From Chloroflexota bacterium (GTDB lineage Bacteria; Chloroflexota; Anaerolineae; Promineifilales; Promineifilaceae), in NCBI GenBank assembly GCA_018004935.1, contig JAGNBF010000006.1, forward strand, positions 67,150 to 131,149: a DNA stretch of 64,000 nucleotides, given 5' to 3'. The translations under genes and the position numbers were made by a program. This document shows positions 18,708 through 32,518 of this stretch, piece after piece (within the stretch, counting starts at the first letter, position 1; each line of letters starts with the position of its first letter). The notes below the pieces were generated by a model, which was not told the DNA's origin, searched no databases, and was given only the letters and a program-made list of their open reading frames with translations.

Positions 18708-18743
18708 TTTGGAATCAGTTTGGAATCACCTATTTGCTACACT
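18708..18743 (+). promoter_or_regulatory. SARP-type promoter: tandem TTTGGAATCA repeats plus extended -10
   Basis: TTTGGAATCA at 18708-18717 and again at 18719-18728 (11-bp period), a 9-bp gap, then TACACT at 18738-18743 preceded by TGC. The same module occurs at 23664-23699 and 29754-29789. The direct repeat takes the place of the -35 box, as in promoters activated by SARP/BTAD proteins. It is 76 bp upstream of the C39-like gene. Confidence 0.75.
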
Positions 18744-18818
18744 GCAAATTCCTGTTGCCTGGTGGTTGCAAATGAAGGGTGAACCCTCGAAACTCGAAAC
18801 TCATAGAAGGAGCAAAAA

Positions 18819-19667
18819 ATGGCTGTCCAATATTTTCAAAACGATACCCGCTGGGAAAAGAAGCCGTTAGGGTTAAACCCCAACGCCACCATTCGTGATT
18901 TTGGTTGCCTGTTGACCAGTATGACGATGGTCGCCAACAACTTCGGGGGTAATTACACCCCCGAAAGTTACAACGAGGCTATGAAACAGAATGGCGGTTT
19001 CAGCCCCGGTCAGCAATGGATCAAAACCTTTGCTATCACCAAAGTTTTGCCTAATGTCAAATACCAGAAAAGTGTGGAATGCCCGGATAGTCCGGCCCCC
19101 CTGGCCGATATTGATGCCGGGTTGGCCGCTGGTTCGTTGGTGGTGGTCAATGTGGATCGGGATGCCAAAGACACGACGTTCTCCCCAGCGGATGGGCATT
19201 GGGTGGTCATTCACAAAAAACAGGGGAGCGATTACCTCATTTGGGACCCATATAAGTCAGAAGGGGCGTCGGAAACGCTGATAGGGCGTTATGGCTTTGG
19301 CTTCAAAAATGCGGCCCAGATCATTAAACAGGCGATCTGGTTCGGAACGGGCGATTTTCCGGCGCAGGGAACACCCTCAACCCCCACCCAACCGGCCACA
19401 CCCAAACCACCCACAACCCCAACAACACCGAATACCCCACCTACCGGGGGTAAATTGACCGTGCGTACCACCGGAGATCAGGTGTCATTGCGGAGCCAAC
19501 CAGTAGTGTCCACGAATACATTGATTCGCTCCATGCCTAAAGGGACGGTGTTGGAAGTGACAGAAGGGGGCAACGCGGCCGCGAAAATTGGAGCGCAAAA
19601 CGAGTGGCTCAAAGTCAAGGCCAACGACGGCAAAGAAGGTTATGTGGCGGCCTGGTTTGTTGTCTGA
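18819..19667 (+). CDS. C39-like cysteine peptidase domain with SH3 domain
   Basis: A 282-aa protein. Residues 1-170 look like a C39-like papain fold: DFGCLLTSMTMVANNFG carries the candidate catalytic Cys and DGHWVVIHKK the His. A Pro/Thr linker follows, then a bacterial SH3 domain at about 215-282 (VRTTGDQVSLRSQP, LKVKANDGKEGYVAAWFVV). This suggests a wall-targeted peptidase or amidase, but no signal peptide is visible at the N terminus (MAVQYFQNDTRW), so export would need another route. ATG 18819 follows AAGGAG. It is the nearest target of the SARP-type promoter at 18708 and faces the large BTAD regulator that ends 285 bp downstream. Confidence 0.82.
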   Translation: MAVQYFQNDTRWEKKPLGLNPNATIRDFGCLLTSMTMVANNFGGNYTPESYNEAMKQNGGFSPGQQWIKTFAITKVLPNVKYQKSVECPDSPAPLADIDAGLAAGSLVVVNVDRDAKDTTFSPADGHWVVIHKKQGSDYLIWDPYKSEGASETLIGRYGFGFKNAAQIIKQAIWFGTGDFPAQGTPSTPTQPATPKPPTTPTTPNTPPTGGKLTVRTTGDQVSLRSQPVVSTNTLIRSMPKGTVLEVTEGGNAAAKIGAQNEWLKVKANDGKEGYVAAWFVV

Positions 19668-19951
19668 TAGTGTCTAAGGGTTCACTCAAGATTAAGTTGG
19701 GTGGCGCGGTCAGGAGACCGGCCACAGCAAAGGGAAGGGGAGAAATCCACCGGCGCGGTTTGGGGCGTTCGCCTCCAAACCGCGCCGAGAAAAATTCCCC
19801 GCCCCTGGGGCGGGATGAGGAGCGGGGGCCTCTGAATAGTTACCCCATTTGTAACGATATAGCCTCGCGGGAGAAACCGGGTTTTTGCTTAGGCCAACTT
19901 ATACCCTACAAGGGAAAACCCCGGTTTCTGAGGTGTATAGTTACCCCATTT
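19668..19951. repeat. Family A fragment and composite repeat
   Basis: A family A copy starts at about 19671 and is cut at about 19731, where a composite repeat (hairpin 19751-19787 with one wobble pair) takes over. Around 19870-19940 an AGAAACCGGGTTTT/AAAACCCCGGTTTCT inverted repeat lies between the two convergent genes and could act as a terminator, though it lacks a T-run. Confidence 0.65.
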
Positions 19952-22900
19952 TTAGAATAAAGAGGGTGCTAGTTGCGGCCGCGGCCGCACAAAAAGAGCC
20001 GTCAGTACCCCATAACCATTGGTGGGGGTACTCACCCCGCTATAACTGTTGGCCTTCAACAAAGCAACATTCACCGGCATCTCCAAATAGGTACGGCGAA
20101 TATGTTCATCGGCGATTTGTTGGGCCAACACCTTGATTTCTGATTGCGCCTTCAGCAACACCGCATCCATCCGTTTATCCCCTAATGCCCGTAAAACCAA
20201 ATAACAAGTCAGGTAAATCCAGGATGTTTCGGTAAACCCTTCCAGGGTATTACCTTCGGCGATGAAGGTTAAAATAGTGTCCACCCACTTCTTAGCCGTG
20301 GGTAGATTACCTTGTTGGTAAAAGATTTCGGCCAGACCGGCATAGGCTTCCATGGCTATTTGGGCATGATGACAGGCTTGACTAAAGGCGATAGCCTCGT
20401 GGTAAGCCGATTCGGCCTTACCTATTTGTCCCTGAGCCATGAACAAACGGCCATTGACACAATACAAATATCCCAAAACCTCAGTTAGTTTTAGCTTCTG
20501 GCATAATTGTTCACATCGCCGACTGGTTTCCTCGGCCAGCGAGAAATCGCCGGTCTGCCAGTGTAAACGAGTCAACCCCTCTAGCGGGTATACTTCCATG
20601 AGAGGATCACCCAAGGATTGGGATGCCTGTAAAGCGGATTCATAATAGGCCAGGGCCTGGGGAATGTTGCCAAAACGACGAGCCAGATCACCGAGGTTAT
20701 TCTCTAAGCGACCAAGGGTATGGATGTTGGCAAACTGGCGGCTATAGCTAAGGTTTTCCTGCCAGTATTCATACGCCTGCCACAATTGACCCTCATAAAA
20801 AGCCACTCCCCCAGAGCTACGGGCTACTTCATTTTTGAGCCAGCTATCATTTAAGCGGTAGGCAATGATCCGGGCTTCATCTAGATAAGCGCTGGTGGTT
20901 ACTTTGGGCCGGACTAAACGAAGCAAACATTCGGCCGCAATCCGCTCTTGCCCGACGGCCTGGGCCAAGGCCGCACCAGAAGACAATGTTTCTCGGGCCT
21001 GCCGAGATTCCCCTTGTAAAGACAAAAGGCTACCCCGGGCCTGAAGACTGCGGCTGAGGGTTGTACGATCTTGGGTTTGCTGTCCAATTACCCAGGCACG
21101 ATCCGCGGCCGCAGTAGCGGCTTCTATCGCCCCAGAGCGGAGATAAAAGATGGCTTGTTCGGCCCACAAAAGACCAGCCAGGGCCAACTGACGTTGCCAC
21201 TCCCGATAAAACTGATAACTCCTGGGGCTAGAAATGGTCGAGAGCGGGGAAATCGTCTTTTGGATCTGTTCCGCGGCCGCGCCCAGATCCAATAAGGCCG
21301 TGCTGGTTAACCCTTTCATGGTGTAATACCGCACCAGTGGCACCACACATTCGTTAATCCAGGTAAATTGACCCTCTTTTAATGCCCAATACCAGGCTTT
21401 GCGAATATTGTTTAACTCCAGCCCGACAACGGGCAAACTGATTTGTGGTTCGGCCCCCAACAAATACGGCGACTGATCCTTGAGCCAATGTAGATAATAA
21501 TGGCTGTGCGCGGCCGCAACATCATCTTGTGGTTTTACATGGGACTGAGCAAACTGCCGCACCAGTTCATGCATACTGAAACGCCCATCAGCTTGTTTTT
21601 CGATAAAAGCGTGCTGGTGCAAGCCCTGCATAAGCGCCGGAGTGACGCCAGCAATCGCCATAGCGGCTTCTTCTGTCCAGCCCCCCTGGAAAACAGACAA
21701 TTGGCCCAGCAGTTGTCGGAGCGGCATCGCCAACAAGGTATAGGACCAACCCAAAACGGCAGTCATGCTCTTGTGCCGATCCACAATGTCTCGGTATTGC
21801 GTATGGAGCCGTTCCAGGTGCTGGATCAAAGTGTTTTCGATTTCGGCCAGGGAAAACTCATTGATCCAACTGGCCGCCAGCTCCAGAGCCAGCGGCCAGC
21901 CCTGTAAAAAGCCACTGATGCGGGTAATGTGGGCCAGGGTAGTCTCATCCAGGGTAAACCTGGCTCCGGTTCGGGTGGCGCGTTCGATGAAGAGTTGCAC
22001 ACTATCCGCGGCCGCGTCGCCCTCATGCTGGGGTAAGCCTAAACCGGCAATAGGGTAAACCTGTTCATCCGGTAGGTTTAAAGGGTGACGGGATGTAACC
22101 ACAATGGTCAGGTGAGGGGCGGCATCTAACAAACGGGTAACAACCGGGGTGTTGTCTAGCAGGTGTTCAAAATTATCCAGTACCAGCAGATGGTGTTGTG
22201 CTTGAAAACTGGTCAACAGTTCGATAACGGGATCATTGGTGCCGGTGAAGATGTAACCAACCGCGGCCGCGATCACCTGCACCATCACCTTTTCATCTGC
22301 CTCCGCTATAGTGGCCAGGGGGACAAAGCTGGCCCCGTGGGTAAACTGTCTCTGTAACCTTTGGGCCAGGGCAATCGCCAGTCGCGTCTTACCCATTCCC
22401 CCGCCACCAGCCAGTGTGATCAACCGATGGGCCGGATTCAACACTATCTGACTTAAGGTTTCCAGCAATGTGGTGCGCCCAAAAAACGGCGTGCCCGGTT
22501 GCGGCAACGGGGCGGGAGCCATGCGTGGGGGTAAGGGCGGGAGCAAGGCAGTAGCGGGGGCAGTAACAGTCTTAGGGGTGGGGTACTGTGGCACGGGGCG
22601 ATTGAGCAATTGTTGATAACAGGCCCATGTTTCAGGTGAGGGTGAACTACCGAGTTCTTCGGCCAGGATTTTCTGGCACAGGGCAAAATGATGTAACGCG
22701 GCCGTGACCTTGCCTTGTTGGCCTAAGGCTCGCATCACCTGCCGGTGGGGATGTTCCTGCCAGGGGGAAAATTGGATATGCCGCCGGGCGTACTGTTCCG
22801 CCAATGGGCCATTCCCTGTCACCAACGCCTGTTCCGCCAGCAGGGTCAACCCTGACAAAACGGTATTGAGCCGCTGTTCTTGTTGCCACAAACGCCATTC

Positions 22901-23392
22901 ATCAAAATGGGAAGAATCGTCAAGGCCAAAACCGGCTAAAAAATCTCCCTGATACAAATCTACAACCTGGCGCAGGCGGTAGAGACAGTCAGGGCAGGTT
23001 TCTAACAGGGCATGGGGGTGTTCATCACATTGGCGTATGAGTTGTTCACTCAGGATGACATCTGCGTGCAGATCAGGGCCATCCCAAATCAGTTGCACCC
23101 AGTTCAGGTCGGTGAACAGAAGGGGGGCGGAGGGGCGCAGGTCTTGGATGGGGGCCAGGGATTGGCGCAAACGGGTGAGGAGCAGGTTGATATTTTTGCG
23201 GCCGCGACGTCTGTCTTGCTCTGGGAAAAACAGACCCGCCAGGGTGTCACGGGCAATCGGTTCGTTGGGGTAGGCAAGCAAGTAGGCTAACAGGCCCCGT
23301 ACTTTGTCGCTACGGAAAGTAAGCGGGCCAGAAGGGGACGCGGCCGCGAAACCACCCAATAATTTGATTTCCAGATTAAACATGACAGGCAA
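19952..23392 (-). CDS. Large BTAD/NB-ARC/TPR transcriptional regulator
   Basis: A 1146-aa regulator of the AfsR/SARP-ATPase kind. A winged-helix domain lies at about 1-100 (LGGFAAASPSGPLTFRSDKV; RRGRKNINLLLTRLRQSL), a bacterial transcriptional activation domain (BTAD) at about 120-265, an NB-ARC ATPase at about 305-620 with P-loop AGGGGMGKTRLA near 330 and Walker B LLVLDNFEHL, and TPR-like helices from about 640 to the end. A C-x2-HPH-x5-C-x2-C motif precedes the BTAD and is shared with the truncated paralogue at 28412-29731. It lies between two genes that both carry the TTTGGAATCA repeat promoter, and is the best candidate to bind it. Ligand unknown. At least eight GCGGCCGC sites occur inside. 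Confidence 0.93.
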   Translation of the reverse strand: MPVMFNLEIKLLGGFAAASPSGPLTFRSDKVRGLLAYLLAYPNEPIARDTLAGLFFPEQDRRRGRKNINLLLTRLRQSLAPIQDLRPSAPLLFTDLNWVQLIWDGPDLHADVILSEQLIRQCDEHPHALLETCPDCLYRLRQVVDLYQGDFLAGFGLDDSSHFDEWRLWQQEQRLNTVLSGLTLLAEQALVTGNGPLAEQYARRHIQFSPWQEHPHRQVMRALGQQGKVTAALHHFALCQKILAEELGSSPSPETWACYQQLLNRPVPQYPTPKTVTAPATALLPPLPPRMAPAPLPQPGTPFFGRTTLLETLSQIVLNPAHRLITLAGGGGMGKTRLAIALAQRLQRQFTHGASFVPLATIAEADEKVMVQVIAAAVGYIFTGTNDPVIELLTSFQAQHHLLVLDNFEHLLDNTPVVTRLLDAAPHLTIVVTSRHPLNLPDEQVYPIAGLGLPQHEGDAAADSVQLFIERATRTGARFTLDETTLAHITRISGFLQGWPLALELAASWINEFSLAEIENTLIQHLERLHTQYRDIVDRHKSMTAVLGWSYTLLAMPLRQLLGQLSVFQGGWTEEAAMAIAGVTPALMQGLHQHAFIEKQADGRFSMHELVRQFAQSHVKPQDDVAAAHSHYYLHWLKDQSPYLLGAEPQISLPVVGLELNNIRKAWYWALKEGQFTWINECVVPLVRYYTMKGLTSTALLDLGAAAEQIQKTISPLSTISSPRSYQFYREWQRQLALAGLLWAEQAIFYLRSGAIEAATAAADRAWVIGQQTQDRTTLSRSLQARGSLLSLQGESRQARETLSSGAALAQAVGQERIAAECLLRLVRPKVTTSAYLDEARIIAYRLNDSWLKNEVARSSGGVAFYEGQLWQAYEYWQENLSYSRQFANIHTLGRLENNLGDLARRFGNIPQALAYYESALQASQSLGDPLMEVYPLEGLTRLHWQTGDFSLAEETSRRCEQLCQKLKLTEVLGYLYCVNGRLFMAQGQIGKAESAYHEAIAFSQACHHAQIAMEAYAGLAEIFYQQGNLPTAKKWVDTILTFIAEGNTLEGFTETSWIYLTCYLVLRALGDKRMDAVLLKAQSEIKVLAQQIADEHIRRTYLEMPVNVALLKANSYSGVSTPTNGYGVLTALFVRPRPQLAPSLF

Positions 23393-23411
23393 CTCATCAA
23401 CTCCAAATAAC

Positions 23412-23521
23412 GGCTCTTTGGGAACTTAGGGGATTGACACAATATATACGGGCTGGCCTTGTGCCTGCCCAGTGTGGGGCAACCACAAGGGTTGCCCGTA
23501 CCCCACGAAATCCCGAAGACC
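23412..23521 (-). mobile_element. Family D miniature element with 8-9 bp target duplication
   Basis: A 110-bp reverse-oriented copy with ends GGCTCTTTGGG and CCCGAAGACC. It is flanked by identical CCAAATAAC at 23403-23411 and 23522-23530. It is inserted 19 bp upstream of the regulator start codon and may have changed its promoter. Confidence 0.85.
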
Positions 23522-23663
23522 CCAAATAACTACCCCTAATTGTGGCGCACTTCGCTTACGAAAACACTATAGATGTCTCGGCTAAACTATTTGCTTCAGC
23601 GGCAACCAAACCCAGGCGCAAAATCCTAACCAAATCCGAACCTTTGGGGCGCAAAAACGGCCA

Positions 23664-23699
23664 TTTGGAATCAGTTTGGAATCACCTGTTTGGTATTAT
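23664..23699 (+). promoter_or_regulatory. SARP-type promoter of the surface-protein gene
   Basis: TTTGGAATCA at 23664-23673 and 23675-23684, 9-bp gap, then TATTAT at 23694-23699 preceded by TGG (extended -10). Repeat spacing and distance to the -10 are identical to 18708-18743, although the -10 hexamer itself differs. Confidence 0.75.
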
Positions 23700-23880
23700 C
23701 GAGTCAAATAGCCGTAGTGGTTATCGTGGCCACATGGTAACTATCATTTTTATCCAGGAGTTTCACATGGACGGAACGCGCACCAAGAGGGATGAAAATA
23801 ACGCCACCATTTTCATCCCCATCCGTGTTTCTTCCTATCCGTGTTCCCGTCATCCGTGTCTATTTTCGCAGGAGAAGAAA

Positions 23881-26800
23881 ATGTTGCCCCTTGTTGCTAC
23901 AAAAAGAAGAACCGTTTTAGTGGGTTTATTAACCTTACTCATGGCCGGGTTAATAGTCGGGTTGCGGCCGCAGAGGGTGAACGCGGCCGCGCCCAGCGTC
24001 ACCTTCATCGGAGCCGACACCACCACTCACGATGCCTGGCGCACCACCTCAGTCGCCAAACCCCTGGATGTGGATGGGGACAACATCTATGGCACGGATG
24101 GGTTTTACCTTTTTGGTGGACATACCCCACCCCCTACCCGCACCGCTCCCCCCGCTTATGCCACCGTTACCCAACGTCCGGGCACATTGCTTTTTGCCGG
24201 TAATGCCAGTTACATCTACTATGACAACCCCGACCTGACCGGCTCTGGCCCGGTCGCCAACGTCATCAGCGGGGTTGTTTACAGCCAACCAGGGGCCAAT
24301 ATCCCGACTGAGTGGGTGGACATCTCCTTTACCCGTTCTGGCTATTACCGCATTGGTATCATCACCGATAATGCTGATTTTGTAAGCATCTCTCCACTCA
24401 ATTTCCGTTTTCAACAAATCACCGGGGGAACCGTAGACACAGGTTACGTAGCCGCTTCCACCGACCGGGATCGGGATATTGATCATTATCTGTTTGATAT
24501 TGAAGCCACAGCGGGTGATGTTTACCGGGTATCCGGGCAAAGCGATCCCCTTCATGCCAGCAATGGCATTGGCGGGATTTTCTTTGATGGCTTTCCCTAT
24601 CAAACCATTACCGATACCACAGCCGGTACAGCCACCAACAATGGCACGGTAGCCGGGGGCGAATATGTGGGGTACAGCACCGGTATCAACAATGGGTTTG
24701 GGAACGTCATCGGCAGTAATTCCCAACTGCACATTGATGCCGACAGCAGTGGCAACCTGAACCTGGGGCTAAAAGCGGGTGCGGCGGTTGTTTCACCTAA
24801 CGCCATGGTGGTCTACCTTGACACCGACAACGGGGGGACAGGGTTCAGCACTACCAGTGGTTTCACCGATACGGCAGATGGCTGCCGCCGGGCTATTTCC
24901 GGCTTTGATGGCACAAATCGTTCTACCCTAAACTTTGCCACCGGGTTTACGGCCAACTACGCCATTTGCCTGGATAACGGGTTTGCCGGGTTGTGGCAAC
25001 TGACCAATGGCGGTTCCCACACCTTTATTACCAGCCTCAATCGCACCAACACGGGCACGGATTATGAGATGAATTTCACTCTGGCGAATCTGGGGTTGAG
25101 TGCGGGCAGTCAGATTCGTTATGTAGCAACGTATCTCAATTCAACCAATGGGTTCCGCTCCAATGAATTTCATGGTGTGGAGACGTTTGCCGGGGGGAAT
25201 CCGGGTTATACGACGGTGAACCTGCCCTTTAACAGTTTTATTTTGTTTAAGTCGCTTGATCTAACGTTGGTGGTAGACAGGGCGGATGATACAAACGCGG
25301 CCGCGGCCCAGGTCTGTGATGATCTGCTGCCCAATGATTGCTCCTTGCGTGGGGCGATCAGCAAATCGAACGCGGCCGCGAGCCTCACCTACACCATCTC
25401 CTTCGACCCCAGCCTCGACGGTACACCCCTCACCCTCACGGTGGCGGGTGATAGTGAAAATGCCAATGCTACAGGCGACCTGGACATCACCCGCGCCGTT
25501 ACCATCAATGGCAACGGCACCTCAAAAACCATTGTCCAGGCCGGTACGACCAATCTCAATGGCATTGATCGAGTTTTTCACGTTGGCACAAATGTCAATG
25601 TCACCTTTAACGATTTAACGATCCGTTATGGGCGATACTTCGGAGCATCCGGGGGGGGCATTCTGAATGATGCCGGAACTGTGACGGTGAACCGAAGCCT
25701 TATTAGCAGTAATACCGCCGCTTATGGGGGGGGGATCATGAATGATCAGGGTACCCTTACCATAAACCAGACGACCATCACTGACAACGGGGTGTTGAAT
25801 GACGGCGGCGGGATACGCAGTAACGCGTCTAACTTGCCTGCCACCTTAAATGTTTACAACAGCACCATCAGTGGCAACAGAGGTTTTTATCGAGGGGGGG
25901 GCATTCTGGTTTACACCGCAGGGCCGAGTGCCACAGCGCATAGCACCGCCACCCTGATTAACACCACCGTCACCAACAATCGCTCGAATGTCTCTGGTGT
26001 AAGCTATGGGGGCATGTTGATGGTTTGGGATAACGATGGTGGGGCGGCCATCGCCAGAATCACGTTGCAAAACAGCCTGATAGCGGATCCATCTGTCACT
26101 GTCAATTGTGTTACCCATTTAGGCGGGCAAATTGTCTCCAACAATAACAACCTGGACAGTGGTAATACCTGCGCTCTGGCCCAACCCAACGATATTGCCA
26201 ACGGAACGGCTAATTTAGGAGTGTTGCAAGATAATGGCGGCCCGACGTTTACCCAGGCTTTGTTGAGTGGCAGTCAGGCGATTGATGCGGGCAATAATGC
26301 GGCGTGCGCGGCCGCGTCCATCAACAATGTGGATCAACGGGGGGTGGCGCGGCCGCAAAATAGTACCTGCGACATCGGCGCGTATGAATATGTGCCCCCG
26401 GTTTCCCCCGGTGTGAATGGCGGCAATGGCCCCGGTGGCGTCGGCGTCACCAACGGCACATCCCCCCTGCTCCTCTGGCTCCGGGCCGACACAGGGATAT
26501 TCAGCAACACCCCCTGCACCACCCCTGCCAGCCACAACACCGATGTTGCCTGCTGGCGCGATCAGAGTGGCTATAACCGCAGTTACACCCAAGCCCCCAT
26601 CGGCAACCGGCCCACCTACTTCACCGGCATTCGCAACGGCCAGCCCGTCATCCGCTTCAACGGCTCATCTGACCGCCTGACCAATACAGGTGCAGGGGGA
26701 GCCGTCTTGACCGCTGGTGACGATACCTTCAGCTACTTCGCCACCTGGATGTCCAATGTCGCCAACTATCAGGTCATCTATGAGCAAAACAACAATACGC

Positions 26801-27834
26801 TGGTCAATGGCAGGCGAGCCGCCCTTCTAGCGATCCCAGCCAATCAATATGGGTTCAACGGTGAAGCCAATGATTTCCACGCGGCCGCGCCTTATACCAC
26901 TGGGCAATTTGAACTCTCATCTATCGTGTTGAACGGCAACCCCAGCAACAACGTGTATGTGTCTGGGCGTGGTACTCAATATAGCGGCACCATCAACACG
27001 GCTACCCAAGATGTAGGTACCGCCGGGGGCACATCTGTGGGTTACAAAATTACCGCTAGTAGCGAGTTTTTTAACGGTGACATCCCCGAAATCATTGTCT
27101 ATGGCGATGCCCTCGCCGATGTGGATCGCATCCTGGTTGAGAATTACATGAGTGCCAAATACGCCATCAACCTGAACACCAACGATGTTTACGATGGAGA
27201 CAGCAACGGCGACTTTGATCTGGATGTGGCGGGAATTGGCCGTTTCGGGGGTGTCAATCACACCCAATCCCATGCGGGGGGCATGATTGTGGTCAACAAT
27301 AGCTTCCTCAAGGAAAACGGGGACTGGCTCCTCTTTGGGCACAGAACCGCCAGCAATGACAACACAAGCGACGAACTGCCCACCAGTGGTGACTGGGATG
27401 GTGTAGGTGATGTGCGCTGGGCACGCCATTGGTACATAGATGTGACCGACGCCAGTGCCAATAACGGCACGGTCAATATCATCTTTGATTTCAGCGATGC
27501 AGGCATGAGCGGCGGGTTCTCGCCCGCCACACCGGCTAACAATTACCGCCTGCTGAAACGTTCCGGAATCAACGATCAGTTTAGCGACATCACAGCGGCA
27601 TCCGGGGCGGTTGTGGTTGTGACGGGGGATCAGGTGCAATTCTTGGGGGTAGATGTGGCTCAGTTGGGCAGTAACTTTACCCTGGGTTCCCTTGACGGAG
27701 CTATCTCACCCACGGCTATCACCACGCAAAATGCAGATACCCAGGACGACCAAACTAGCTATCTGACGCTTGCCGCTCTGCTGTTGATCATGGTAGCCGC
27801 CACCGTTGTGGCTATCCGGCGACGCCTGATGTAA
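23881..27834 (+). CDS. Giant surface protein with beta-helix and C-terminal membrane anchor
   Basis: A 1317-aa exported protein. The signal peptide is MLPLVATKRRTVLVGLLTLL followed by a hydrophobic stretch to about residue 37. The N-terminal 450 residues are a Gly/Thr/Asn-rich region I cannot assign. CSLRGAISKSNAAA at about 490 opens a parallel beta-helix region with repeats such as YGGGIMNDQGTLTINQTTIT up to about 830. A lectin/LamG-like section follows (LLLWLRADTGIF, CWRDQSGYNRSYTQAPIGNRP) to about 1270. A final helix (LTLAALLLIMVAATVVA) with RRRLM anchors it. ATG 23881 follows AGGAG. A SARP-type promoter lies 180 bp upstream. Adhesin or sheath-like role is a guess. Confidence 0.85.
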   Translation: MLPLVATKRRTVLVGLLTLLMAGLIVGLRPQRVNAAAPSVTFIGADTTTHDAWRTTSVAKPLDVDGDNIYGTDGFYLFGGHTPPPTRTAPPAYATVTQRPGTLLFAGNASYIYYDNPDLTGSGPVANVISGVVYSQPGANIPTEWVDISFTRSGYYRIGIITDNADFVSISPLNFRFQQITGGTVDTGYVAASTDRDRDIDHYLFDIEATAGDVYRVSGQSDPLHASNGIGGIFFDGFPYQTITDTTAGTATNNGTVAGGEYVGYSTGINNGFGNVIGSNSQLHIDADSSGNLNLGLKAGAAVVSPNAMVVYLDTDNGGTGFSTTSGFTDTADGCRRAISGFDGTNRSTLNFATGFTANYAICLDNGFAGLWQLTNGGSHTFITSLNRTNTGTDYEMNFTLANLGLSAGSQIRYVATYLNSTNGFRSNEFHGVETFAGGNPGYTTVNLPFNSFILFKSLDLTLVVDRADDTNAAAAQVCDDLLPNDCSLRGAISKSNAAASLTYTISFDPSLDGTPLTLTVAGDSENANATGDLDITRAVTINGNGTSKTIVQAGTTNLNGIDRVFHVGTNVNVTFNDLTIRYGRYFGASGGGILNDAGTVTVNRSLISSNTAAYGGGIMNDQGTLTINQTTITDNGVLNDGGGIRSNASNLPATLNVYNSTISGNRGFYRGGGILVYTAGPSATAHSTATLINTTVTNNRSNVSGVSYGGMLMVWDNDGGAAIARITLQNSLIADPSVTVNCVTHLGGQIVSNNNNLDSGNTCALAQPNDIANGTANLGVLQDNGGPTFTQALLSGSQAIDAGNNAACAAASINNVDQRGVARPQNSTCDIGAYEYVPPVSPGVNGGNGPGGVGVTNGTSPLLLWLRADTGIFSNTPCTTPASHNTDVACWRDQSGYNRSYTQAPIGNRPTYFTGIRNGQPVIRFNGSSDRLTNTGAGGAVLTAGDDTFSYFATWMSNVANYQVIYEQNNNTLVNGRRAALLAIPANQYGFNGEANDFHAAAPYTTGQFELSSIVLNGNPSNNVYVSGRGTQYSGTINTATQDVGTAGGTSVGYKITASSEFFNGDIPEIIVYGDALADVDRILVENYMSAKYAINLNTNDVYDGDSNGDFDLDVAGIGRFGGVNHTQSHAGGMIVVNNSFLKENGDWLLFGHRTASNDNTSDELPTSGDWDGVGDVRWARHWYIDVTDASANNGTVNIIFDFSDAGMSGGFSPATPANNYRLLKRSGINDQFSDITAASGAVVVVTGDQVQFLGVDVAQLGSNFTLGSLDGAISPTAITTQNADTQDDQTSYLTLAALLLIMVAATVVAIRRRLM

Positions 27835-28411
27835 TCATTTTTTAGGGTAGAGACGCAAAATATTGCGTCTCTACTAAGGGCCTGTAAAAGATTAAGTTCC
27901 GTCAAGATCTGACAGGTTTCCGAAAACCTGTCAGGTCTAAACCGGGAAGTTATATTTTTACGAACCCTAAGGAATGCGGATTAAATAACCTACGGAATAA
28001 CTGTGGCCGGTCTTCAGACCGTGCCACTTTCGATGAGCAGGTTATTTAATTCCCCTTCCTCAGCCAGCAGATTGGCGCTCAGCGGAGGGCGGTGAGCGCC
28101 AAAAAACCTCTCGTGCAAGGGGTAAACCATCCTGGAAATGCCATATTTCCAGGATGGTTTTGTTTTGTATCGTGGCAACGGGCACAATCTGCGGTTTTTT
28201 CGCCCTGTCGCCATCTCGCTTTATCGCCGCGTCGGGTATATTCGTGGCCACCCCCGCCTCTGGGGGCGGGGTTAGGGATGGGGGAAACCCTATTACCTGA
28301 CTATTTTTTAAACAACAACCAACCACCGGGGGTTTTGTGTTAGGCCAAAAAGAGCCTTTCGAGGCTGTTGACCAGCCGTATAAACCTTGGGAAGGCTGAA
28401 TGGTTACTGTT
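27835..28411. repeat. Repeat block with a structured-RNA candidate
   Basis: TAGAGACGCAA/TTGCGTCTCTA hairpin at 27848-27873; reverse family B element at about 27876-27969; reverse family A element at about 27967-28050; structured-RNA candidate at 28052-28165; and composite-repeat remnants at about 28195-28290 (TTTATCGCCGCGTCGGG, then GGGGCGGGGTTAGGG). No gene. Confidence 0.65.
28052..28165 (+). ncRNA. Candidate structured RNA ending in a strong terminator
   Basis: Nested pairing is visible: CCCCTT (28052-28057) with AAGGGG (28117-28122); TTGGCGCTCA (28072-28081) with TGAGCGCCAA (28093-28102); loop GAGG (28085-28088) can pair with CCTC (28107-28110) across an A-rich linker, as in an H-type pseudoknot. 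A perfect 16-bp hairpin (28124-28139 with 28145-28160) followed by TGTTTTG is a rho-independent terminator on the plus strand. No promoter was recognised, and it may instead be the 3' end of the surface-protein transcript. Confidence 0.4.
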
Positions 28412-29731
28412 CTACAGGCGGTAGACGATTTCTTGCTGGAGTTGTAGCGGCCGCGACGCCACCACCAGCATCGTCACCTGGGGCGCGTTCTGCAAAATGT
28501 CCATCACCAGAGTCACCCCATCTTCCGGGGCAGTGGGCTGAATAAAGGGGGTGAAGGCGTCCAGGATAAGGAGCAAGCGGCGCGGCCGCAGATAAATACA
28601 CAAACTTGTTACCAAATCTTGGTCGGGAGGGAGTGTCAGTTGAAACGCGGCCGCAACCGCCTGAGCCAGTACCGTCGGCTGAGTTGTAGGTAAATCCGCC
28701 AGCCCTACATACCAAACCCCCTGAGGAAATTGCCCCATCAATTTTCGCCCGACCGTCTGCGCCAACTCCTTTGACCCGTTCATAGGGCCAACCAGGGTCA
28801 TCAGGCGGTTGATCGGATCAGTCAACAAGGTACTGACATAACGGACAGCCTCTGGGGGCACAGCCTGAGCCGAAGGGATGTCTGGGGGTGGGGTCGAGGC
28901 CTTAGCCTGAGCCTCGCGCTGGATCAGGTGCATTTGGGCCAGCGTGTCTGCGGATGGTTCAACCTGGAGCCTGTCAGCCAGAATACGTTTAAGGGTAGAA
29001 AATTGAATCAACGCGGCCGCATGATCCCCAGCGGCGGCAAGGGCTTGCATCAGTTGTTGGTGAGCACGTTCTTGCCAGGGGACCAGGGCAATCTGACGAC
29101 GAGCATAAAGCTGGACATGGTTATAGTTTGCGGCCGCGAGCGCCCCTTCAGTTAACGCCGATAACGCCACCATCACCTGTTGTAAATGACTCCCCTGTTG
29201 CCACAAACGCCACTCATTAAAATCGGGACTATCTGCCAGTTGCAAACCGGCCATAAAATCACCCGCATACAAATATACCATCCGCTGAAGCCTTAACTGG
29301 CATTGTGCACAGTAATTCAAATTTTCATGCGGATGAAGCCCACAGGCCGTGTACAGGGCATTAAATTCGAGCACATCAGCCCAATGCCAGGCCGGTTGCC
29401 AGTTCAGCCGAATCTGGTCCCGTTCCACTTCCAACAAAGGAAAGGCCATTCCCATTTCCGCCTGTACCGGAGCTAAACTCTGCCGCAGGCGAGTAAGGGT
29501 CAGATTGAGGTTTTTGCGCCCCACCGGGTCTGAATAATCACCATACAGCAAATGAACGAGTTCGACACGGGAGACAACGTGAGCCGGATGCAAGATCAAA
29601 TAAACGAGCAAGGCTCTTACTTTGTCAGACCGGAAAGTCAGAGATGTAGTAGGGGTCGCGGCCGCGAAAGCACCAAACATCGTCACTTCCAAGTAGTACG
29701 TATTTCCCGGGTTTTGCTCAGCAAACACCAT
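28412..29731 (-). CDS. Truncated BTAD regulator with degenerate ATPase
   Basis: A 439-aa paralogue of the 1146-aa regulator: winged-helix (FGAFAAATPTTSLTFRSDKV), the same C-x2-HPH-x5-C-x2-C motif, and a BTAD up to about residue 260. The ATPase part has lost its P-loop: GGGGMGKT of the paralogue aligns with GPMNGSKE. The frame stops at ASRPLQLQQEIVYRL, in the middle of the NB-ARC region, and no TPR remnant follows because repeat DNA begins there. The DNA-binding half is intact, so this may act as an ATP-independent regulator or as a competitor. GGGAGG precedes ATG 29731. A SARP-type repeat lies 23 bp upstream of the start codon, so autoregulation is possible. Confidence 0.85.
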   Translation of the reverse strand: MVFAEQNPGNTYYLEVTMFGAFAAATPTTSLTFRSDKVRALLVYLILHPAHVVSRVELVHLLYGDYSDPVGRKNLNLTLTRLRQSLAPVQAEMGMAFPLLEVERDQIRLNWQPAWHWADVLEFNALYTACGLHPHENLNYCAQCQLRLQRMVYLYAGDFMAGLQLADSPDFNEWRLWQQGSHLQQVMVALSALTEGALAAANYNHVQLYARRQIALVPWQERAHQQLMQALAAAGDHAAALIQFSTLKRILADRLQVEPSADTLAQMHLIQREAQAKASTPPPDIPSAQAVPPEAVRYVSTLLTDPINRLMTLVGPMNGSKELAQTVGRKLMGQFPQGVWYVGLADLPTTQPTVLAQAVAAAFQLTLPPDQDLVTSLCIYLRPRRLLLILDAFTPFIQPTAPEDGVTLVMDILQNAPQVTMLVVASRPLQLQQEIVYRL

Positions 29732-30193
29732 TTTTGCCCTCCCAATACCGCAATTTGGAATCAGTTTGGAATCACCTATTTGCTACACTTCAACCATGCG
29801 AAAACATAACGATTCATAAAATAAATTCTACCGGCTCAAACAGGGTAAGGTTACTTTGGCATCCACCCAAACAATTCATGATCAGTAACCCCCTCATTAG
29901 AAAGAAGCCGGATTTTTAACTGTTTTGTAACTATTCAGGTGTCACAACTTATTCCCACGCTCGGCGTGGGAATTCCCGCTGGGACGCTCTGCGTCCTACA
30001 CGACGCCGAGCGTGGAATGAGAAGGTGAAACCGCTGACCCTCACCCCCGACCCCTCTCCCGAAGCGGGAGAGGGGAGTTAGTTCCCTCTCCCCTGAGGAG
30101 AGGGTTAGGGTGAGGGACTGTATAGATACACTATTTTGACCTTTTTCAGTGGGGTCATCCATAGCTCTCAATATAGATCAGGAGCACAAAGCG
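29732..30193. repeat. Promoter and inverted repeats before small-gene pair
   Basis: After the SARP-type promoter (29754-29789) there is AT-rich unassigned sequence to about 29945, then a CCACGCTCGG inverted repeat at about 29953-30018 and a CTCTCCC/GGGAGAG inverted repeat at about 30050-30110. Nothing else recognised. Confidence 0.6.
29754..29789 (+). promoter_or_regulatory. SARP-type promoter between truncated BTAD gene and small ORFs
   Basis: TTTGGAATCA at 29754-29763 and 29765-29774, 9-bp gap, TACACT at 29784-29789 preceded by TGC. It points away from the truncated regulator, toward the 79-aa and 57-aa genes, though about 400 nt of leader precedes the first of these. Confidence 0.7.
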
Positions 30194-30433
30194 ATGAGTT
30201 CATCATCCAAAGATAACATGGCATGGCATTATCAATCATACATGCTCAGATTATGGCGGGAAGCCCCTGAGTCACCCTATCGAGCTTCCTTACAGGCGAC
30301 CACCAATGGGAAACATCTGGCGTTTGCCGATCTGACAACCTTATTTGCGTTTTTGACTCAACTAGAGCAAACACCACATTCACAACCGCTTGACATTACC
30401 AGAATCAGCCAGGATGCCCAAGGACAATCCTGA
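30194..30433 (+). CDS. Small protein of unknown function (79 aa)
   Basis: A 79-aa soluble protein starting MSSSSKDNMAWHYQSY. The pattern LRLWREAPESPYRASLQATT followed by FADLTTLFAFLTQLE resembles short Chloroflexota proteins I have seen as unnamed families, but I cannot give a name. ATG 30194 is chosen over an upstream in-frame ATG at 30149 because AGGAG precedes it by nine bases. It lies downstream of a SARP-type promoter and upstream of a RiPP-precursor-like gene, separated from the latter by a family A repeat carrying a family D insertion. A role linked to the peptide gene is possible but unsupported. Confidence 0.65.
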   Translation: MSSSSKDNMAWHYQSYMLRLWREAPESPYRASLQATTNGKHLAFADLTTLFAFLTQLEQTPHSQPLDITRISQDAQGQS

Positions 30434-30723
30434 CGATATAGCGGCTCTTAGGACTGAGGATTAAATAACTTGGGGTCTTCGAGATTTCGTGGGGTACGGG
30501 CTGGCCTTATGGTTGCCCCACATGGGCAACCATAAGGCCAGCCCGTACATATGGTGTCAACCCCCTGAATTCCCAAAGAGCCATAACTTGAACATTTACT
30601 GTGGCCAGTCTCTCCACCGTGCCACCACCTTACAACCAACAAATTTTGTCTGTCACACTACTAGCCTATAGTCAGTCAGTTTGTAAGTCAAACCTCATAT
30701 TATCTATAATGGAGAAATAAATC
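30434..30723. repeat. Family A element split by a family D insertion
   Basis: The left part of a family A element (GGATTAAATAACTTG) ends at 30472 and the remainder (ATAACTTGAACATTTACTGTGGCC) resumes at 30583; family D lies between. From about 30645 to 30723 the sequence is AT-rich and probably carries the leader of the peptide gene. Confidence 0.75.
30473..30582 (+). mobile_element. Family D miniature element with perfect 8-bp duplication
   Basis: A 110-bp element (ends GGGTCTTCGAG and CCCAAAGAGCC) flanked by ATAACTTG at 30465-30472 and 30583-30590. It splits an older family A repeat. Confidence 0.88.
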
Positions 30724-30897
30724 ATGACAACTATTCCCACGAAATCATCTACATCTCAGAAACTCTATACGCCTCCTACTATCATCTATGAAGGACAAAT
30801 CAGCACTCGTGCTGGTTCACCCGCTGGCCCCATCGCCCCAACAGAGAGGCAAGAGGTAGATCCAATTGATCTCTTTGACAATGAAGATAGATCTTAA
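30724..30897 (+). CDS. RiPP-precursor-like peptide (57 aa)
   Basis: A 57-aa peptide. Residues 15-24 (YTPPTIIYEG) fit the YxxPxLxxxG leader motif recognised by lasso-peptide and related RiPP maturation proteins, with Ile in place of Leu. A Thr follows at 28 and an AGSP at 30-33, then a Pro-rich stretch and an acidic DPIDLFDNED end. A lasso ring would need Asp or Glu at core position 7-9, which is absent if the core starts at Ala30 or Gly31, so a true lasso peptide is unlikely. No maturation enzyme is in the window. GGAG lies nine bases before ATG 30724. Confidence 0.6.
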   Translation: MTTIPTKSSTSQKLYTPPTIIYEGQISTRAGSPAGPIAPTERQEVDPIDLFDNEDRS

Positions 30898-31025: not shown

Positions 31026-31874
31026 ATGGCCCTAAAAGGCGACCTGCGCGACTTCTCTACCACACAACTTCTAAACCTCATTGCTCTGGCTCGCAAGACC
31101 GGTATGCTCACGATTCAGGGATCTGAACCAGCCAGGATGTCCTTTAAGGAAGGCAAGCTGATACATGCCGCTGTGGGGAATCAGGAAGGGAGTCTGTCTC
31201 AAATTTTGCAACATGCTGGCAAGCTCACCGCCGAGCAAAGTCGGGTTATCCAGGCCAAAGCCGCGGACAAAAGTGACAAACAATTGGGTCACATGCTCAT
31301 TCAGGCAGGTTATGTCACACAAAGTGATATCATCCAAAGTGTGCGCCAATATGTGTTAGATGTGGTTTACAAACTGTTTACCTGGGCAGATGGCACTTTC
31401 CAATTTGAAGCCAACAAACTACCCCCTCCAGAACGCATTACCATTCCTATAGATTTGGAAGGGGTCATTATGGAAGGAAGCCGTCGGCTAAAAGAATGGG
31501 AACGGCTCCAAGAAGAGATACCAGATCTGGATATTTCTTTGCGCTTTACAGATAAACCAACGGCTCGCCTGCGGAATATAAACCTGACGGTTGAAGAATG
31601 GCGGGTCATCTCTTTCATCAATCCACGTAACAGCATCCGTCAGATTGCCCAGGGAAATAATCTGAACGATTTTGAAATTCGCCGCATTGTCTATGGCCTC
31701 ATCCAGGCCGGTATTGTTGAAATCGTGACGGTGAAAAAACCCAAACAGGTTCTACCACCTACACAAACAACACGCCGAGGCGCGGCCGCACAGGCAGAAG
31801 TCGCTGTTGGTCAGTCACCAGAGGAAAAACGGTCCATTGTCAGCCGTCTGATTACGCGTATCAAGGGACTATAA
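31026..31874 (+). CDS. DUF4388-domain signalling protein
   Basis: A 282-aa cytosolic protein. The N terminus LKGDLRDFSTTQLLNLIALARKTGMLTI is the hallmark of DUF4388 (PatA-like N-terminal) domains found next to response regulators and MglA GTPases. GYVTQSDIIQSVRQYVLDVVYKLFTWADGTFQF continues that domain to about residue 130. A winged-helix-like part follows at about 180-240 (ISFINPRNSIRQIAQGNNLNDFEIRRIVYGLIQAGIVEI). AGGA precedes ATG 31026. It is the first gene of the signalling cluster, 95 bp before the GTPase, and is probably an adaptor for it. Confidence 0.85.
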   Translation: MALKGDLRDFSTTQLLNLIALARKTGMLTIQGSEPARMSFKEGKLIHAAVGNQEGSLSQILQHAGKLTAEQSRVIQAKAADKSDKQLGHMLIQAGYVTQSDIIQSVRQYVLDVVYKLFTWADGTFQFEANKLPPPERITIPIDLEGVIMEGSRRLKEWERLQEEIPDLDISLRFTDKPTARLRNINLTVEEWRVISFINPRNSIRQIAQGNNLNDFEIRRIVYGLIQAGIVEIVTVKKPKQVLPPTQTTRRGAAAQAEVAVGQSPEEKRSIVSRLITRIKGL

Positions 31875-31969
31875 TCCGTCGCCAAGTTCATTTATCCACG
31901 CGGCCGCTACCACGGTTGCTTTTTTCCTTTATCCTATAGCTTTATTACCTTATTCAGAGTGAAGGGCCT

Positions 31970-32518
31970 ATGCAAGCAGTAAAAATGGTCGTCACCGGCC
32001 CCTTTGCGGCAGGAAAAACCGCTTTTATCGGTTCCGTTAGTGAAATTCCCGTTGTCTCTACCGAACGGAGAATCACCAGTTCCGCCGAACAAGTCAAAGA
32101 AACCACAACCGTGGCGATGGATTTCGGTCGTATTACTGCCGAAGATGGATTAGTTCTCTATCTTTTTGGAACCCCAGGTCAGAGGCGTTTTGACTTTATG
32201 TGGGAAATCCTCTCCGAAGGGATGTTGGGGTTTATCGTATTGGTAGATAGCACCAAACCCGAAACATTCCGTGAAGCCAAACGTATTTTAGAAACCTTCG
32301 AAAGTTTTGCCCCTACCCCGTTTGTGGTTGCCGCCAACAAACAAGACCACGATGATGCCTGGGAACCGGAAGATTTACGCATTATTCTCCGGCTCGACGC
32401 CAGCGTCAAAGTATTGCCTTGTGTCGCTACGGATCGTGAAAGCGTAAAAAATGTCTTACTAGAGCTTTTGTACTCCATTCTGGAAGAGCTAGACGACAAA
32501 GGCAAGTCGGCCAAATAA
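31970..32518 (+). CDS. MglA-like small Ras-family GTPase
   Basis: A 182-aa bacterial small GTPase. G1 is GPFAAGKTAF at residues 10-19, the switch I Thr is in TTTVAMDFG, G3 is FGTPGQRRF, and G4 is NKQD. The FGTPGQ form instead of DTAGQ is typical of MglA and related bacterial GTPases. In Myxococcus MglA sets cell polarity; in Chloroflexota the family often sits with DUF4388 and roadblock proteins. No roadblock (MglB-type) gene is present here, so the GTPase-activating partner is unknown. AAGGG precedes ATG 31970. Confidence 0.9.
   Translation: MQAVKMVVTGPFAAGKTAFIGSVSEIPVVSTERRITSSAEQVKETTTVAMDFGRITAEDGLVLYLFGTPGQRRFDFMWEILSEGMLGFIVLVDSTKPETFREAKRILETFESFAPTPFVVAANKQDHDDAWEPEDLRIILRLDASVKVLPCVATDRESVKNVLLELLYSILEELDDKGKSAK

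Follow-up and report, generated by a model that had tools for sequence, protein, structure and literature searches.

A putative SARP-type operator beside two BTAD regulators of a Chloroflexota bacterium, and its counterparts at the BTAD genes of relatives

Background

Work on SARP activators has been confined almost entirely to actinomycetes, with targets found one by one. The best comparison for the locus described here is AfsR of Streptomyces coelicolor on the afsS promoter (PDB 8HVR, 8K60, 8JKE; PMC10936776). The AfsR operator consists of 11-bp repeats, the 3' repeat lying 8 bp from the -10; residues R87, R92, R94 and T88 touch the DNA in the cryo-EM structure, and the NTPase and TPR parts of the protein keep its SARP domain inhibited as long as ATP is not bound (PMC10936776). 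A second SARP of known structure, EmbR from Mycobacterium tuberculosis (PDB 2FEZ, 2FF4), has a C-terminal FHA domain. Direct repeats of 11-bp period that replace the -35 are also bound by OmpR/PhoB response regulators, as in the pho box. No operator of a Chloroflexota SARP/BTAD protein was found in the literature searched.

The window analysed here is a 64-kb stretch of DNA from a Chloroflexota bacterium whose 8-Mb genome is a draft, 97% complete. It holds two BTAD regulators, P0002 and P0003, which resemble AfsR in their winged helix and BTAD fold and, for P0002, in the NTPase and TPR parts. The sites beside them likewise have two 11-bp direct repeats where a -35 would stand, with the -10 at a fixed short distance, and the helix positions for the DNA contacts correspond, the last by alignment only, with no binding data for either protein. 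The locus differs from AfsR in that the organism is not an actinomycete, the operator sequence is another one, Asn stands at the R87 position, the operator is divergent to the regulator gene, the targets are anchored and small proteins rather than antibiotic genes, and P0003 is without a sensor part. The FHA domain of EmbR has no counterpart in P0002 or P0003, and unlike OmpR/PhoB proteins both lack a receiver domain and carry BTAD, with the covariation described below pointing to the BTAD proteins.

The two regulators

P0002 (19952-23392, minus strand) is a large SARP/BTAD regulator of 1146 aa comprising winged helix, BTAD, NTPase and TPR regions. Its Walker A motif is intact (GGGGMGKT) and AAA_16 and TPR matches are present, so that the NTPase/TPR criterion for a large, AfsR-like SARP is met. 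P0003 (28412-29731, minus strand; 439 aa) is truncated in the NTPase with a degenerate Walker A, GPMNGSKE standing in its place, and has no TPR; thus, it does not meet that criterion, and no remnant of its lost C-terminal part, frameshifted or otherwise, is found downstream. The BTAD domain (PF03704) scores 57 and 53 bits in the two regulators against a cut-off of 22.1. Both have an N-terminal winged helix directly before BTAD, and the P0003 model has the overall fold of AfsR and EmbR, which fits the domain and fold criteria for a SARP; no receiver domain match was obtained in either, so the definition of an OmpR/PhoB protein is not satisfied. The SARP domain of P0003 was predicted by model with a pLDDT of 95.8, its best structural matches being AfsR in the transcription complex (Z 19.8) and EmbR (Z 18) over ~250 residues, and a profile built from 39 relatives matches AfsR over the whole domain (E 5e-27).

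P0002 and P0003 are each other's closest paralogues in the genome, and their recognition helices are near-identical (GRKN[IL]NLxLTRLRQSLAP). Among the 24 BTAD proteins of the genome with an alignable recognition helix, Asn at column 61 is seen only in these two, most others having Arg. No orthologue of P0002 or P0003 above 40% identity was found in GTDB contigs, and therefore the exact operator could not be traced to sister species.

The operator and its six promoters

The operator is composed of two 11-bp units, TTTGGAATCAG-TTTGGAATCA, followed by 9 bp and then TANNNT. Exact matches to TTTGGAATCAGTTTGGAATCA lie on the plus strand at 18708-18728, 23664-23684 and 29754-29774. Site 1 extends over 18708-18743 with the -10 TACACT at 18738-18743; site 2, divergent from P0002, over 23664-23699 with TATTAT at 23694-23699; and site 3, divergent from P0003 and 23 bp from its start codon, over 29754-29789 with TACACT at 29784-29789. 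The spacer is 9 bp in all three, although 1 bp in this distance hinges on where the unit boundary is drawn. No further match to TTTGGAATCAGTTTGGAATCA at up to 3 mismatches occurs in the window, and the sites are absent from 100 dinucleotide shuffles.

In the whole genome the operator is found at six places: besides the three sites of the window, these are C186:27454, C105:3139 and C132:22751. All six score E 3e-8 or better in a position model whose next match in the genome has E 3.35, and all have TANNNT after 9 bp (TACACT, TATTAT, TACACT, TAAAAT, TAAGAT and TAAAAT), so that the operator meets the SARP expectation of direct repeats at 11 bp whose 3' unit lies about 8 bp from the -10. The repeats are retained across sites while the flanks and -10 letters differ, and 4/6 sites have a longer upstream stretch in common. 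The probability that three of six sites land in the 11-kb interval holding both regulators is 5e-8. The operator with its -10 is absent from 395 other genomes of the class, bar one weak match with 3 mismatches (G379), which was treated as chance. The operator, its geometry and its uniqueness are thus shown by computation. The preliminary description had claimed three sites with identical spacing despite differing -10 hexamers, which held, and an extended -10, which is not general, as TG is present at only 4/6 sites genome-wide. The genome scan for the motif plus TANNNT that it suggested gave six sites, all at promoters, the opposite of one outcome it had named as refutation, namely a motif lying mainly away from gene starts within a dispersed repeat.

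Target genes

All six targets are read downstream from the same strand as their site. The target of site 1 (18819-19667, plus strand) is a 282-aa protein with Peptidase_C39_2-like and SH3_3 domains and without an obvious signal peptide, its gene starting 81 bp past the -10. Site 2 is followed by the gene of a 1317-aa anchored protein (23881-27834, plus strand) with a choice-of-anchor Q domain and hydrophobic segments at both the N- and C-terminal, for which 23881 is the likely start rather than 23542. The operator at C186 stands before a paralogue of this protein (50% identity over 856 alignment columns), that at C105 before a protein which also has N- and C-terminal hydrophobic segments, and that at C132 before a ClC chloride channel gene. 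The probable target of site 3 is a 79-aa protein (30194-30433, plus strand) belonging to an uncatalogued small-protein family, and a second small gene (30724-30897, plus strand) encodes a 57-aa precursor-like peptide, MTTIPTKSSTSQKLYTPPTIIYEGQISTRAGSP... The latter (YTPPTIIYEGQISTRAGSP...) has no Pfam or NCBIfam match, and its likeness to a RiPP leader is by eye only. Just past the small genes, 31026-32518 encodes a DUF4388 protein and then a small Ras/Arf-like GTPase.

Upstream elements and leaders

An upstream element at 23621-23642 (plus strand), before site 2, is a tandem 11-bp repeat, AAATCCTAACC-AAATCCGAACC. A part of it, AACCAAAYCCGAACCTTT, recurs 36-38 bp upstream of the operators at C186, C105 and C132, so that 4/6 operators are preceded by this element. 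The idea that the upstream AACC repeat serves a further BTAD gene as its operator was considered and rejected, no other BTAD gene of the genome having a like repeat at its start.

Long leaders follow sites 2 and 3 and the operators at C186 and C132. Between the C132 operator and the ClC channel gene, the leader contains strong hairpins (L006:1535-1680, z -5.7), including one perfect stem of 17 bp. Dispersed intergenic repeats were observed at 23440-23500, 29955-30030 and 30480-30560, within or close to the leaders that follow sites 2 and 3; the C186 leader holds such repeats as well. That several targets have a long leader containing a hairpin or dispersed repeats counts against the explanation preferred here.

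As a separate observation on repeats, the window holds 99 copies of the highly iterated palindrome GCGGCCGC, where ~1.5 are expected. In most relatives (loci L074-L153) the top octamer is ACGGCCGT, with 88 copies in 41 kb in the genome G001, and in G007 it is TCGGCCGA; the palindromes have a common core, CGGCCG, with lineage-specific flanks. They are comparable to cyanobacterial HIP1, and nothing on such an iterated palindrome in Chloroflexota was found in the literature searched.

Operators at the BTAD genes of relatives

The general occurrence of such operators was assessed in a discovery set, the BTAD genes of the genome itself and of 28 genomes of its family, and in a replication set, the BTAD genes of 11 further genomes and of GTDB contigs, together amounting to 257 distinct BTAD genes with a readable helix. 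A motif-free scan for 10-mers repeated at 11 bp gave 35 sites in 26 kb for the 200-bp bin immediately before the BTAD domain, with 0-4 sites in every other 200-bp bin, 2-4 sites in the same bin at periods 10, 12 and 13, and no 10-mer repeats at period 11 in the coding control. On the divergent strand, 29 TANNNT occur at offsets 27-32 among the 39 sites of the discovery set (chance ~0.5 per offset) and 13 at offsets 27-31 among the 20 sites of the replication set (background 0.45 per offset); no comparable peak in -10 register exists on the codirectional strand.

When an operator was defined by a score of at least 8 of 10 with the -10 fixed in place, 65/253 BTAD genes reached the threshold at period 11 on the divergent strand, compared to 3, 2, 1, 0, 1 and 2 at periods 8, 9, 10, 12, 13 and 14; the remaining 188/253 are without an operator by that threshold. 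Codirectional repeats show a weaker excess (21 at period 11 vs 1-6 at other periods). The computation thus shows that many Chloroflexota BTAD genes in this group are linked to an operator of their own.

Covariation of recognition helix and operator

The operators differ between regulators, and their similarity follows the identity of the recognition helix. Controlling for BTAD-domain identity, the partial Spearman correlation is 0.27 (also given as about 0.26; permutation p 0.0005) and is still 0.245 for pairs less than 40% identical, whereas the BTAD domain itself correlates with operator similarity at 0.07 or less. In a sliding scan over the whole domain the peak lies at the helix (0.248), with values of up to 0.12 in windows away from it. 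Columns 61, 66, 68 and 62, among the best-scoring single columns, correspond in the alignment of P0003 with AfsR to R87, R92, R94 and T88, the DNA-touching residues mentioned above. Column 114 and a few other non-helix columns also score high, which is unexplained and counts against the preferred explanation.

One element of this code concerns column 61. With Arg at this column, the two units both show CG 8-10 bp before the -10 in 43/52 cases, and without Arg in 1/14 (Fisher 3e-7); after helix clustering the counts are 32/39 and 1/10 (5e-5). P0002 and P0003 have Asn at column 61, and their presumed operator has TC where CG otherwise stands. As the genes are related by descent, the p-values of the covariation are only approximate, and more weight can be placed on the count after helix clustering and on the partial correlation. 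Covariation of helix and operator across relatives is shown by the computation. Support for the regulon of the window consists of this general rule together with the way in which its unusual helix and unusual operator match, without a check of conservation from sister species.

A small-protein family and other divergent genes

The genes recurring in divergent position behind the operators encode CSLREA/choice-of-anchor-type secreted proteins, globin-like proteins and a small protein of ~75 aa, the first two labels being read from the sequence and not from a family search. Globin-like genes, recognized by eye, were observed divergent to BTAD regulators and behind SARP-type operators at L077, L254, L256 and L281.

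The small protein, of which the window gene at 30194-30433 is a member, has the consensus YxSYLLRLWxE...WRxxLE..TGxRxGFxxLxxLxxFL. The loci contain 73 members, 56 of which are divergent and lie no more than 700 bp upstream of a BTAD gene; 9 further members lie farther out, and 0 are upstream in the same orientation as the BTAD gene. The sample was drawn around BTAD genes and hence informs on orientation and position, not on exclusivity. Operator and small protein co-occur beyond expectation (25/62 vs 28/173, p 2e-4). The members tested have no Pfam or NCBIfam match, and the model, predicted to consist of three strands and a helix, has no significant match among solved structures. A role as partner or feedback element of the BTAD regulator is possible.

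Proposed mechanism and alternative explanations

It is very likely that the doubled TTTGGAATCAG is the operator of the neighbouring activators P0002 and P0003, an inference from sequence alone, for which data on binding and expression are lacking. In analogy to AfsR, a pair of adjacent protomers would cover the place of the absent -35 box, each taking one 11-bp unit and setting its recognition helix into the major groove, and would bring RNA polymerase to the -10 that follows after 9 bp. P0002 would, on the same analogy, be conditional through control by its NTPase and TPR parts, and P0003, with neither TPR nor a working Walker A, is inferred to act unconditionally or to compete for the same sites. 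Binding by the two proteins, activation over repression and separate roles for P0002 and P0003 all remain inferences, with helix-operator covariation among relatives as indirect evidence for binding and activation.

One alternative is that a response regulator of the OmpR/PhoB type truly binds and the BTAD genes are bystanders, and the period and position of the repeats alone indeed cannot tell the two classes apart. The repeats are, however, concentrated at BTAD genes and their sequence covaries with the recognition helix of the BTAD protein itself, which a regulator encoded elsewhere would not yield, and this reading is therefore very unlikely. The regulators could instead chiefly repress or autoregulate their own divergent genes and not activate the divergent targets, as might be suggested by the short distance between site 3 and the P0003 start codon and by the weaker excess of codirectional repeats across the group. 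This is considered unlikely, though less firmly excluded than the first alternative, given that the -10 keeps a constant register on the divergent strand, the arrangement of AfsR-type activation, and shows no codirectional peak.

It could also be argued that the sites are mere copies, whether of a dispersed repeat or a duplicated promoter, and have no regulatory meaning of their own. The upstream stretch common to 4/6 sites and the position of two sites before paralogous genes speak for such copies; yet there are merely six in 8 Mb, every one before a gene with the -10 in register, the repeats were kept while flanks and -10 letters diverged, and the downstream genes are mostly unrelated. The dispersed-repeat reading was rejected on the small number of copies and their invariable location at promoters, and copying without regulatory meaning is held to be very improbable.

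With operation by the BTAD proteins as the preferred reading, the earlier claim of a SARP-type operator tied to them is supported by geometry, uniqueness, replication and helix covariation, without binding having been shown. The claim that P0002, P0003 or both are in control is not settled as to which regulator acts. A compact surface regulon had also been proposed; compactness failed, as the six promoters of the inferred regulon are spread over four contigs, two being divergent from the genes of their own regulators, and the surface assignment held only in part. The targets include the ClC channel and the C39/SH3 protein without an obvious signal peptide, so that the regulon is dispersed and serves the surface only in part.

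Significance

The operator of a BTAD regulator can be predicted from the sequence beside its gene, and the 66 helix-operator pairs provide a first empirical rule of SARP recognition, in which Arg at the AfsR-R87 position goes with CpG. In a bolder reading, towards which the evidence leans only slightly, the BTAD regulators of Chloroflexota would form a large set of self-linked modules, each made up of a regulator, a divergent operator with a sequence set by the helix and often a divergent protein of ~75 aa, and the window would represent a branch peculiar to its lineage, with Asn in place of Arg and TC in place of CG, which has come to occupy six promoters. The results bring to light an unnamed small-protein family tied to BTAD regulators and offer candidate targets for many BTAD/NTPase/TPR regulators that are so far orphans, in a phylum whose members are difficult to cultivate.
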